Translations under genes and position numbers: made by a program | Source: Blastocatellia bacterium | GTDB taxonomy: Bacteria; Acidobacteriota; Blastocatellia; Pyrinomonadales; Pyrinomonadaceae | NCBI GenBank assembly: GCA_003168335.1 | Contig: PMSM01000005.1 | Location: 124,001-188,000 of the forward strand | DNA: 64,000 nucleotides | Direction of reading: 5' to 3' | Shown here: positions 7,677 through 51,427 of the stretch, piece after piece | Numbering within the stretch: the stretch's first letter is position 1 | How the letters are laid out: each line of letters opens with the position of its first letter | Notes under the pieces: generated by a model | What the model was told of the DNA's origin: nothing | Databases searched by the model: none | What the model saw: the letters and a program-made list of their open reading frames with translations, nothing else

Positions 7677-7781
7677 GTCGAAAGCAGTTTAGCTCAAATG
7701 AGCTGTTTTCGTCGTGAGGTTTTGGGATGATTAGTGTCCTAATGCGTGGCGGTGATTCTGCAAGGGTCGCTTTTGAGGTCA

Positions 7782-7868
7782 GTACCGGGAGCGGTAGCGA
7801 CCGGGTTATTTGTTCTGGCAACTCGACCGTTGCGGGGATTGAGACCCGGTCGCTACCGCTCCCGGTAC
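7782..7868. repeat. Perfect 24-nt inverted repeat (GGGAGCGGTAGCGACC family)
   Basis: The 24-nt arms at 7782-7805 and 7845-7868 are exact reverse complements, separated by a 39-nt loop holding CAACTCGACCGTTG. The repeat lies between nusB and the cheA-like gene, both on the minus strand, so any nusB transcript reading on would form this hairpin. Confidence 0.85.
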
Positions 7869-7889
7869 CGACCGCGTCGCCGGGAAGAC

Positions 7890-16485: not shown

Positions 16486-16950
16486 TCAGCCCCCGTCGAC
16501 GGTGTCCATCACCTGCGCGGACAGCGGCGGCAGATTCATCGTCGCTTTCGGGTAGCACTCTGCCAGGTAAGTGATGATGTCAAAAACCGAAATAGATCCA
16601 ACCAGGTCACCCTTCTTCACCAGCGGAATATTACGAAAGCTCTTCTCATTCATCAGACGGACCGCATCGCCGATGGTTGCCTCAGATGAAAGCGTCTCGA
16701 CCACCGGTTGCATCCAGTGACTGATGGGCGACTCTAAATCAACTTTCTCGCCCAGAACCTTCGTCAGCAGGTCTCGTTCCGTAAAAATGCCGGTCACGCG
16801 ACCGTCATCGGAAATGATCACACAGCCACCCTCATCATTCTTCATCGCTTCGATGGCCTGGGACAGCGGAGTGTAAGGCGAAACCGCAACGTAATCGTCG
16901 GTTGGCAAAACTCTCACGCGCTGGTCACAGGCATTTGGCAGTCGGTTCAT
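16486..16950 (-). CDS. Tandem CBS-domain protein
   Basis: A 154-residue stand-alone pair of CBS motifs (about 20-75 and 85-140) with the typical GIFTERDLLTKVLGE and SFRNIPLVKKGDLVGS segments. Such proteins bind AMP, ADP or ATP and modulate partner enzymes or channels. It is a paralogue of the zinc-ribbon CBS protein at the other end of the kor unit but lacks the ribbon. It lies upstream of korA on the same strand, so it is probably co-transcribed. Confidence 0.87.
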   Translation of the reverse strand: MNRLPNACDQRVRVLPTDDYVAVSPYTPLSQAIEAMKNDEGGCVIISDDGRVTGIFTERDLLTKVLGEKVDLESPISHWMQPVVETLSSEATIGDAVRLMNEKSFRNIPLVKKGDLVGSISVFDIITYLAECYPKATMNLPPLSAQVMDTVDGG

Positions 16951-17385
16951 TTGATGGTCTTCAGGGGCTCAGCAGTTTCGGCGAAAGATTCCTATCTTAA
17001 CTCAATCGACCCACAGGCAAGAATGGATGTTGATTTTATCACACTGTCGCCGGTTTGGATGTGACCCACGACACGTGGTGCTGCCCTAATTTCAGTTTTC
17101 TCTGCGGCCCTCTGCGCCAACCTCTGGGCTCTCTGCGGTTAATGTCTTTGGCTTGGGCAATTAACCGCAGAGAAGAATCACAGGTCTTCGCAGAGGACGC
17201 AGAGAACAACTTGAATTAGGGCACTACCCGACACGTAGACCATGGTTCTGGGATTAGGGCCGAAGTTTCTTTCGGGAAGCGGCTGGATCCGAAGTCTCCG
17301 CGATCAATGTCCGACCATCTCAATTGCCATTACGGTGAGGCCGTCGGTTCGCGGCCGCGCTGACGAAAACTCGTTCACATCAGCG
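16951..17385. other. Gene-free stretch holding the MITE-like element
   Basis: Besides the element at 17077-17228 and its 8-bp flanks, this stretch shows no gene. The part from 16951 to 17068 is upstream of the CBS gene on the minus strand and probably carries its promoter. The part from 17237 to 17385 lies downstream of the cysteine desulfurase gene. Confidence 0.5.
17077..17228. mobile_element. MITE-like element with 8-bp target duplication
   Basis: The 152-bp element begins GGTGCTGCCCTAATTT and ends GAATTAGGGCACTACC. The termini match as inverted repeats at 13 of 16 positions. It is bracketed exactly by the direct repeat CGACACGT (17069-17076 and 17229-17236), as expected of a target-site duplication. 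The interior is itself nearly palindromic (TCTGCGGTTAAT against ATTAACCGCAGAG) and encodes nothing. No cognate transposase is in the window. Confidence 0.75.
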
Positions 17386-18552
17386 TCACGAAGTCTTCAT
17401 TACGCTCCCCTGGGCTGAGATCGTCACTTGCTCAATGACTTTGGTGAGCATCGCCAGCGTTTGATCGATTTCCGCCCGCGTGTTGTAGCGCGAGAGCGAA
17501 AATCGAATCGAGCCGCGGGCCACCTGATAGGGCACTCTCATCGCTCGCAGCACGGCTGAAACTTCCTGAGACTCCGCGTTGCATGCCGATCCGGTTGAAA
17601 CGCAAATGGCCTTGTCGTCCAGCATGGCCAAAATGTCCCCGCCGTCCAACCCTTCGAAAGATATGTTCGACGTATTCGGCAAACGTCTTGCCCGATCCGC
17701 GACCCCGTTCAAGCGCGCATTTGGAAACTGGGCCAGGATTTCATCCTCCAACCGATCTCTTAACGTGCGAATCTGTTGGTGTTCGGTAAACTGGTGAGCC
17801 AGTTGGCAAGCACGTCCCAAGCCGACGATATTGGGGACGGCTTCGGTGCCTGAGCGCCGGCCGCGCTCTTGCCCACCGCCGATGATGAATGGCGGAAGGT
17901 TCACGCCGCGCCGGATGTAGAGTGCACCGACACCCTTCGGCGCATGGAACTTGTGTCCCGACACCGCAAGCAGATCGACCGCTGACTCGCGCAAACTGAT
18001 CGGAATCTTTCCTACCGCCTGGACCCCATCGACGTGAAAGACCGCGTCTGAGTTTTCTCGCACGAGGCGGCCGATCTCTTCGATGGGAAACAAGACTCCG
18101 GTTTCGTTGTTGGCCATCATCACTGAGACTAGTCCGGTATCGCGGCGCAGGGCCCGGCGCAGATCGTCGAGATCAAGCTCGCCATTTTGATCGACTTCCA
18201 GCCACGTTACTTCACAACCAATTTCCGCCAGATGGTCGCACAGGCCTCGCACCGCTTCGTGTTCGACGCGCGTGGTGATCAGATGACGCTTGTTTGGGTT
18301 TTGTTCCAGGAAGCCGCCGATTGCCCAATTGTCGGATTCTGAGCCGCAGGAGGTAAAAACGATCTCGCTCGCGTCGCTTGCTCCCAATAATTCAGCGACT
18401 TGTTCGCGCGCTCCTTCCACGGCGCTCCGCATCCTGCGGCCCAACGCGTGGGCTGAAGATGGATTGCCGTAGAAATCTTTCAGATAGGGTTCCATCGCCG
18501 CGAAGACTTCCGGCGCGACCTGGGTCGTAGCGTTGTTGTCGAGATAGATCAT
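17386..18552 (-). CDS. Cysteine desulfurase (NifS/IscS type)
   Basis: A 388-residue PLP enzyme that converts cysteine to alanine and passes sulfur as a persulfide for Fe-S clusters or thiolation. The PLP lysine is Lys201 in AVSGHKFHAPKG and the active cysteine is Cys324 in STGSACNAES. The His in TRVEHEAV and the Gln in HVDGVQAVGK are the usual cofactor contacts. The NNATTQVAPEV start at residue 7 is the standard NifS opening. No iscU or suf genes adjoin it; the Mrp carrier and the A-type carrier are 2-3 kb away on the other strand. The next gene upstream encodes a membrane glycosyltransferase. Confidence 0.92.
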   Translation of the reverse strand: MIYLDNNATTQVAPEVFAAMEPYLKDFYGNPSSAHALGRRMRSAVEGAREQVAELLGASDASEIVFTSCGSESDNWAIGGFLEQNPNKRHLITTRVEHEAVRGLCDHLAEIGCEVTWLEVDQNGELDLDDLRRALRRDTGLVSVMMANNETGVLFPIEEIGRLVRENSDAVFHVDGVQAVGKIPISLRESAVDLLAVSGHKFHAPKGVGALYIRRGVNLPPFIIGGGQERGRRSGTEAVPNIVGLGRACQLAHQFTEHQQIRTLRDRLEDEILAQFPNARLNGVADRARRLPNTSNISFEGLDGGDILAMLDDKAICVSTGSACNAESQEVSAVLRAMRVPYQVARGSIRFSLSRYNTRAEIDQTLAMLTKVIEQVTISAQGSVMKTS

Positions 18553-20235: not shown

Positions 20236-20302
20236 TAATTAGTTTTCGCTCCGAGCGCGAATATATTGGACGTTTATGATTCAGTCAACGCAACTGTGTG
20301 CC

Positions 20303-20408
20303 GGGAGCGCGGACGTCTCGTCCGCACTGAGCGCGAAGCGCGAATATTGGTGAACCCAAAGGATGACCAGCGCTTGAAGCGCTATGCGGACGAGACGTCC
20401 GCGCTCCC
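20303..20408. repeat. Palindromic repeat, family A copy 2
   Basis: The 24-nt arms at 20303-20326 and 20385-20408 are exact complements (GGGAGCGCGGACGTC...). The interior contains GAGCGCGAAGCGCG, oriented opposite to copies 1 and 3. The repeat lies in the divergent gap between the glycosyltransferase and apbC. Confidence 0.85.
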
Positions 20409-20494
20409 AGCAATAGGTTGACCGGGTTCGACTACAGTAACCTGCATCAGCGCAGTGCACACCGCCTGGTTCGACAAATGTCGCGGCCTTTCGG

Positions 20495-35012: not shown

Positions 35013-35023
35013 GATTCTGATTT

Positions 35024-35191
35024 GCGGCTTCGCCGCTCGATGTGCGGAAAGGCTTTGCCTTTCCGTAAGAGCGGGGCCCTGTTAGTTAGGAGGCTACGCC
35101 TCCGGTGGACTTTGGAGGCATAGCCTCGTCGGAGTGATAAAGAGCGTGCCGGAAAGGCGGAGCCTTTCCGCACATCAGGCGGCAGAGCCGC
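35024..35191. repeat. Composite palindromic repeat, family B copy 1
   Basis: Nested hairpins GCGGCTTCGCCGC, GGAAAGGCTTTGCCTTTCC, GGAGGCTACGCCTCC and an inverted mirror (GGAAAGGCGGAGCCTTTCC, GCGGCAGAGCCGC) occupy the gap between the Rieske oxygenase and GcvT-family genes. Copies are at 52387-52548 and 63577-63742. Confidence 0.8.
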
Positions 35192-35202
35192 AGTGGGCTT
35201 TC

Positions 35203-36412: not shown

Positions 36413-36476
36413 GTGGCACAGACTTCAGTCTGTGATTCTGTTGGTTGAAAAGACCACAGACTGAAGTCTGTGCCAC
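36413..36476. repeat. Perfect 22-nt inverted repeat (CACAGACT family)
   Basis: The exact arms at 36413-36434 and 36455-36476 have a 20-nt loop. A related half-copy, CGCAGACCGCAAGTCTGTGCC, is at 54525-54545. The repeat sits between the GcvT gene start and the first SYLF gene, so it lies in a divergent gap. Confidence 0.85.
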
Positions 36477-48640: not shown

Positions 48641-48733
48641 CTCCCTCTCCCTTTGGGAGAGGGTCGGGGAGAGGGCGTGATGTTGAGCCGGCTTACTCCC
48701 TCTCCCCAGCCCTCTCCCAAGGGGAGAGGGAGT
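48641..48733. repeat. Palindromic repeat between pgi and mtnA
   Basis: CTCCCTCTCCCTTTGGGAGA (48641-48660) and TCTCCCAAGGGGAGAGGGAG (48714-48733) are near-complements, with a further GGAGAGGG and CCCTCTCC pair inside. The repeat type is widespread in bacteria and reads as a Pro/Ser/Gly-rich peptide in one frame. Confidence 0.75.
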
Positions 48734-51207: not shown

Positions 51208-51427
51208 GGAGTCCGCGTAGCGGACGGCCGAGAATAGCCCAGCGATTTATCGCTGGGTACGAATCGTCATTAAGAATGTTAGTCCGCGCAGCGGACGACC
51301 GAGGGCCCGTCAATTACCCGTGCCGCCGTATTCAGTCGCCCGCTTCACGGGCTCAGAGGCAAGTATCTTCCCCTGATCCCAGCGCTGGAAGTGCTGGGCT
51401 ATTTTCATTCGTCCGCTTCGCGGACTT
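51208..51427. repeat. Composite hairpin repeats in the btuF leader
   Basis: The hairpins GTCCGCGTAGCGGAC, AGCCCAGCG...CGCTGGGT, GTCCGCGCAGCGGAC, CCCAGCGCTGG and GTCCGCTTCGCGGAC lie in a row between the terminator-like hairpin and the btuF start. The GTCCGC units repeat three times. The long untranslated leader of more than 350 nt is unusual. Confidence 0.65.

Follow-up and report, generated by a model that had tools for sequence, protein, structure and literature searches.

A palindromic MITE that probably joins IS1-type ends to arms of GxxExxY cassettes in a Pyrinomonadaceae genome

Introduction

In a 64-kb stretch of DNA from a Blastocatellia bacterium of the Pyrinomonadaceae (hereafter the window, to which all short coordinates refer), an imperfect palindrome of 152 bp (17077-17228) is bracketed by exact copies of CGACACGT. 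The locus raises the question of what kind of unit this is, which enzyme would move it, and where its interior comes from. The original prediction took it for a mobile, MITE-like repeat whose interior resembles a widespread palindrome. The IS1 family (E. coli IS1 and its relatives) consists of insertion sequences of 0.8 kb with GGT-starting inverted ends and duplications of 8-9 bp, and ISMhu11 is one of its subgroups; an 8-bp duplication is not diagnostic of IS1, and 3.5-3.9 kb is an unusual size for IS1 relatives. MITEAba12 of Acinetobacter, a short and non-autonomous element, was assigned to a co-resident IS by its terminal repeats and its duplication length, according to the available part of that report (PMC6382973). 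Chunjie, QMITE and other prokaryotic MITEs, as portrayed in the accessible sections of a review (PMC10969869), are small, carry inverted ends and direct repeats, and contain no transposase gene, all of which the unit described here has in common with them.

The Element, Its Copies and Its Insertion Site

The two 8-bp target-site duplications CGACACGT occupy 17069-17076 and 17229-17236 (both unstranded; sequence, repeat analysis and flank comparison). Inside them lie a left terminal inverted repeat (TIR) of IS1 type, GGTGCTGCCCTAATTTCAGTT (17077-17097, plus strand), with two mismatches to the shared TIR pattern, and a right one, GGTAGTGCCCTAATTCAAGTT in its minus-strand reading (17208-17228, minus strand), with none. 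The left arm, TTCTCTGCG...CTCTGCGGTTAAT (17098-17143, plus strand), aligns as a homologue of a GxxExxY cassette arm and points its GGTTAA tip inward; the right arm, ATTAACCGCAGAG...CGCAGAGAAC (17160-17207, minus strand), is inverted with respect to the left one in the alignment, and an unstranded spacer of 16 bp (17144-17159), defined by sequence and repeat analysis, separates these two inward-facing arms. The first 16 bases of the ends, GGTGCTGCCCTAATTT and GGTAGTGCCCTAATTC, are identical at 13 positions, the inverted ends reach 21 nt with 81% complementarity, and the inner palindrome is perfect over 14 nt (17130-17143/17160-17173). Sequence and repeat analysis thus bear out the exact duplication, the near-palindrome of 152 bp and the 13/16 agreement of its ends as they had been predicted. 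The two halves align with each other at 52 of 65 columns, and a single strand folds over its whole length at -88.1 kcal/mol (z -11.3), a value equalled by none of 200 shuffles. The window's ORF list holds no frame of at least 80 aa over the unit, which contains neither a transposase nor a GxxExxY gene. A search of eight loci against Rfam returned two microRNA-model matches, both far under the gathering scores; the related copy L054 accounts for one of these (E 0.85), and the window MITE has none.

In its own genome (G000) the element gives 14 matches, which correspond to seven places, each matched on both strands. Five are at full length (97-100% identity), one has 137 bases and one 98 bases, and the flanks differ at every place; copy 6 (L006) has lost its left end. 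All 12 exact genomic matches to CTCTGCGGTTAAT fall within these copies. Palindrome GGTCAGTACCGGGAGCGGTAGCGACCGGGT, at 7777-7873 of the window, recurs near the broken left end of copy 6. A comparison of 51 genus loci, made up of the genome's own copies and BLAST or TIR matches in six congeners, yielded 16 qualifying copies, defined by two of the shared TIRs at a distance of 100-200 bp that enclose CTCTGCG; the other 35 (decayed copies, other elements, outward-facing arms) have no qualifying TIR pair. At least six of eight flank bases are duplicated at 14 of the 16 qualifying copies, versus 3 of 240 left-right cross-pairings. Five of these 14 duplications are exact, five match at 7/8 and four at 6/8, three of the 14 being weak (6/8 outside the own-genome pair L004/L005, or with T-rich flanks, as at L050 and L183); the other two qualifying copies share 6/7 flank bases at length 7. 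Length 8 alone is conspicuous, with a mean flank identity of 0.80; the means for lengths 6, 7 and 9 are 0.31, 0.32 and 0.22, respectively. The seven places in the genome, their differing flanks and the ratio of 14/16 to 3/240 together show that the arrangement is not due to chance. A plasmid search produced seven records with weak partial matches, none spanning 80% of the query.

The element lies between two minus-strand genes. One codes for a CBS-domain protein (16486-16950) and starts about 127 bp from the MITE, which is upstream of it; the other codes for a cysteine desulfurase of NifS/IscS type (17386-18552; best NCBIfam model NifS, just below its cut-off), with the MITE about 157 bp past its stop codon. 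Orthologues of the CBS gene occur in all six congeners (80-88% identity), and the 420 bp upstream of it contain no CTCTGCG unit in any of the six, the G001 stretch being partly N. The sister species G004 retains the two genes next to the element, and when its sequence is aligned to the window flanks joined together, the alignment spans the junction with a single CGACAC, so that a readable empty site is clear in this genome. The desulfurase gene adjoins the CBS gene in part in G005, where the junction lies outside the alignment. Weaker alignments span the junction in G002 and G003, and those of G001 and G006 stop 2-3 bases beyond it; since no adjoining desulfurase gene was found in the DNA examined from these four genomes, what they show is that the element is missing, and not a clean empty site. 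Upstream of the CBS orthologue, G002 has another palindromic sequence, GGGCGGTAGCCCGACCGTAAGGGAGGGCG... (L350), close to where the MITE lies in the window. With TIRs, target duplications, near-identical copies at unrelated sites and an empty site holding one copy of the duplicated bases, the 152-bp unit is a genuine MITE; the further copies and the single-copy empty site that were looked for are both found, in support of the mobility proposed at the outset.

The Ends and an IS1-Type Transposase

With up to two mismatches allowed, six of the seven genus genomes contain the end pattern GGTAGTGYCCTAATTYNANTT, and the reversed pattern used as control matched once in total. Between such ends lie two large transposons, G000:C2:68836-72306 (3471 bp, L110) and G005:C23:846305-850212 (3908 bp, L111), whose ends equal the 18-base TIR consensus with no mismatch. 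Both code for a transposase above the Pfam cut-off for DDE_Tnp_IS1; the matches to the NCBIfam IS1 model reach 48.6 and 48.9 bits, below its cut-off of 100 bits, which makes the enzyme an outlying IS1 relative, and DDE_Tnp_IS240 and an IS6 model are also matched weakly. Residues D67, D138 and E206, invariant in nine aligned sequences, would form the DDE triad. Relatives of the transposase were found in 19 of 40 related genomes, and a GGTAGTGTCCTA-like start (at most three mismatches in 16) near 8 of 30 such loci, a bare count without a chance rate that includes L110 and L111 by construction. A brute-force search for inverted ends round the transposases did not recover them, the transposons exceeding the loci searched, and the targeted TIR search replaced it.

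The ends of the MITE, GGTAGTGYCCTAATT, are by sequence comparison of the type found on genus transposons that code for this IS1-type transposase. The transposase with matching terminal repeats sought for the element thus has a counterpart, in that ends of the same type accompany a transposase gene in the genome itself and in the congener G005. The better MITE end equals the end of the G000 transposon at 16 of 21 bases, so that a closer partner transposon may have been lost or missed, and duplications measure 9 bp at both large transposons and 8 bp at the MITEs. As this end type is shared with IS1-type transposons, in the genus and at the loci of relatives, mobilization in trans by an IS1-type enzyme would best explain the element.

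The large transposons also carry extra ORFs, of 108 and 292 aa in L110 and of 116, 236 and 98 aa in L111; none of the five has a Pfam match, and the four searched have no NCBIfam match. Another element that has these ends and measures 383 bp (L113, G000:C9:717550-717932) was seen by eye to lie within the loop of a CTTTGTG-type palindrome and to be bordered on either side by CCCTTATTA. It seems to contain a glycine-rich ORF of 22-23 aa, presumably a DUF3309-like microprotein; the 23-residue piece had no match in Pfam.

The Interior Arms and GxxExxY Cassettes

The prediction of a widespread interior palindrome stands for other genomes and fails within the window: the inner TCTGCGGTTAAT has two exact matches in the 64 kb, both inside the MITE, and five at up to two mismatches, close to the chance mean of 3.8. 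What that prediction missed is the homology of the interior to reversed arms of GxxExxY cassettes, together with the likely IS1-type mobilizer. Aligned with the right arm of the cassette of the sister species G004, the left arm of the MITE is identical at 36 of 44 columns and the right arm at 38 of 45 (82-84%), with scores of 46 and 54 when the best of 300 shuffles gave 20 and 22. Among 12 CTCTGCG-arm loci read in G004, none has an IS1-type end pair, ten show two reversed arms, TTAACCGCAGAGG...CCTCTGCGGTTAA, with their tips outward, and at the remaining two (L210, L211) a single outward arm is visible within the stretch examined, L210 adjoining a GxxExxY gene; four more G004 loci have two outward arms. 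In two other genera, outward arms surround a single gene (G012:C47:42477-42947, 471 bp; G022:C56:7630-8178, 549 bp), which codes for a GxxExxY protein (TIGR04256; PF13366, PDDEXK_3) at E values of at most 1e-39. The MITE resembles such loci in its arms of about 45 bp, its CRCRRAG units and its TTAACC/GGTTAA ends. It differs from the sister-species cassettes, which have outward tips and no IS1-type ends, in that its arms are inverted and enclose no gene; the TTAA tips, outward in G004, G012 and G022, face each other across the 16-bp spacer. Measured against a GxxExxY cassette, the MITE thus shares the arm sequence and lacks both the gene and the outward tips. The alignments indicate that its interior is a pair of arms homologous to the borders of GxxExxY genes, and not a shortened IS1-type element.

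An IS1380/piggyBac-like origin of the TTAA-tipped arms was also considered, on account of the TTAA ends in G004; it was rejected because no PF13701 (IS1380) match at E 0.001 occurs in any of the seven genus genomes and CTCTGCG-type arms are absent from all four PF13701 regions read.

Inverted repeats accompany GxxExxY genes well beyond the genus. PF13366 is present in 65 of 97 related genomes, in 17 of 18 searched genomes that bear the palindrome, and in UBA11740 (G001) and MAG19_C2-C3 (G012); about 20 genomes contributed the 35 stretches in which the inward-facing palindrome was met, with inward CTCTGCG arms in cyanobacteria, Bacteroidota, Methylobacter and other Acidobacteriota. Out of 60 PF13366 loci gathered, eight truncated ones were left out and 52 were tested by an alignment of the left flank to the right flank in reverse complement, with 104 positions in the same loci, shifted by 900 bp, as controls. 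The flanks of 46 of the 52 loci score above the 99th percentile of the controls (21 of 24 in relatives; 25 of 28 in palindrome-bearing genomes of Nostocales, Bacteroidota, Kapabacteria, Methylobacter, Acidobacteriota and one unclassified bacterium), the tested loci being mostly best-scoring matches and not a random draw. A score of at least 30 is reached at 45 of 52 loci versus 1 of 104 controls, and elsewhere at none of 20 IS1-type transposase loci and at one of nine IS1380 loci. Flanks paired between different GxxExxY loci reach it in 10.6% of cases because unit types recur.

The arms themselves vary. Their unit is often CRCRRAG, and CAGATT, ACAGGATT and CACGAA types were also seen by eye, 20 further loci included; CRCRRAG units were counted at control loci too, 17 correct plus 8 reversed at IS1 loci and 7 plus 5 at IS1380 loci. 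The inverted repeats of L325, L330 and L332 look unlike arrays, and at L324 and L327 the arms round the GxxExxY gene face inward. Exact TTAACC-type tips stand at both sides of one locus in 30 (L283), with TTCACC, TTAGCC and others elsewhere, and on account of these variable tips the alignment test was used instead of a count of exact tip motifs. As for the protein, D66, E76, K78, Q90 and Y94 are invariant in 12 aligned sequences, which we take to be the RecB/Cas4 nuclease pattern; PADLOC reported weak Cas4 similarity only (E 0.0009-0.006), a PDB search by sequence gave no match, and none of three pattern matches in viral contigs was confirmed.

One genus site displays cassettes in several states. 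In G001, G002 and G006 a GxxExxY gene is enclosed by ATCCGCAGATT-type arms; the arms persist in G000 and G003, where nothing matches the gene, and G005 retains eroded arms only. G004 matches the gene and both ATCCGCAGATT-type arms, and with its left flank unaligned it is not proven to represent the same site. Short matches to these arms occur elsewhere in each of the seven genomes, a single one in G002. Gene-less palindromes can accordingly be read, on sequence grounds, as possible remnants of GxxExxY cassettes.

Several other palindromes were noticed. In Nostocales, inward CTCTGCG palindromes (L118, L127, L129, L137, L150) stand near TAGCCCTTTCAAGGTGACT or decayed ends (by eye), which suggests a different MITE family also carrying CTCTGCG arms, and in Methylobacter L138 and L142 contain adjacent CTCTGCG/CTTTGTG palindromes in short arrays (by eye). 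Within the window, 55-187 and 20299-20412 are two copies of another palindrome, TGCCGGGAGCGCGGACGTCYCGTCCGCAC-like, and strong inverted repeats without CTCTGCG arms occupy 35023-35192, 36413-36476, 48641-48732 and 51210-51426.

Discussion

The MITE is very probably a non-autonomous chimera, with IS1-type ends placed on GxxExxY-type arms and moved in trans by an IS1-type transposase. Such an enzyme would recognise the GGTAGTGYCCTAATT ends, and the insertions of the MITE bear 8-bp target duplications. IS1-type ends would have captured arms that belonged to a different element, of the GxxExxY type, and one end-plus-arm piece would have snapped back into a palindrome that later diverged, as the alignment of the two halves over most of their length suggests. 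Among the inward palindromes of the 35 stretches, only those of UBA11740 (L133, L143) were seen by eye to have IS1-type ends, so the inversion may also stem from neighbouring cassettes. Both the mobility of GxxExxY cassettes and the origin of the inverted arms are matters that we infer.

It may be asked whether the palindrome stands on its own, as a REP- or GxxExxY-type unit that happens to be flanked by IS1-like ends. CTCTGCG arms do lack the IS1-type end pair at all 12 loci of G004, and inward arms are spread over cyanobacteria, Bacteroidota, Methylobacter and other Acidobacteriota; against this, the entire unit was copied with its ends included (97-100% over 152 bp, five copies) and the duplication sits exactly outside these ends, so that an accidental association is largely refuted and barely credible. 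Retention as a functional part, for example as a transcription terminator that follows the cysteine desulfurase gene or as a regulatory hairpin that precedes the CBS gene, would suit a very stable hairpin in an intergenic position between two same-strand genes; its absence upstream of the CBS gene in all six congeners and its presence at unrelated genome sites make this highly improbable. A local effect on the neighbouring genes after insertion is possible.

The identity of the mobilizing enzyme leaves slightly more room. Another transposase family that also makes 8-bp duplications could have moved the MITE: a duplication of this length does not single out IS1, the duplications at the large transposons that share these ends measure 9 bp, and the transposase of these transposons weakly resembles the DDE_Tnp_IS240 and IS6 models. 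This alternative is nonetheless improbable, as the IS1-type enzyme is the one coded by both transposons in which these ends were found together with a transposase gene, and GGTAGTGTCCTA-like starts lie near 8 of 30 loci of its relatives, two by construction. We therefore infer an IS1-type transposase, rather than another one, as the probable mover of the MITE.

The presumed system resembles the IS1 family in a transposase that fits the IS1 Pfam model, in its GGT-starting inverted ends and in its duplications of 8-9 bp. It departs from that family in a distantly related transposase of about 280-320 aa, in transposons of 3.5-3.9 kb with extra ORFs and in a MITE without an IS1 interior. It is like MITEAba12 in having no identity to the IS beyond the ends, and unlike it in that the IS of MITEAba12 is ISAba12, with 9-bp duplications and GGCTTTGTTGCACAAA ends; GxxExxY arms are not mentioned for MITEAba12 in the available part of that source (PMC6382973). 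The prokaryotic MITE review does not contain the term "IS1 family", and its accessible sections describe no MITE of this structure (PMC10969869). In the open-licence literature, preprints being outside this scope, we found no MITE with IS1-type ends on the arms of another element, although an earlier description is possible; this literature also yielded no related report on the repeat strings and, in the portions available, no function for GxxExxY, whose name appears in two papers, a single time in each and in passing only, PF13366 being named in one.

A broader reading, which we find plausible while leaning slightly against it, would gather the orphan palindromes (CTCTGCG/CTTTGTG...GGTTAA, AATCTGTGTAATCTGCGGAT, AATCCTGTAAATCCTGTC, TTCGTGTTTGTTCGTGGCTAA) as ends and gene-less remnants of cassettes in which the GxxExxY protein, a small RecB/Cas4-like nuclease, moves or maintains its own hairpin-armed DNA, and whose arms other transposons captured. 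The remnants would then belong to one superfamily in environmental bacteria, each intact cassette coding for a GxxExxY protein, and IS1-type transposons would have captured some arms and spread them as chimeric MITEs.

As a MITE, the element is ordinary in kind, and its interior matters more. Through it, intergenic palindromes of a recurrent class are tied to one protein family, GxxExxY, and the question of what these repeats are thereby becomes testable, in terms of one nuclease-like protein and its flanking hairpins.
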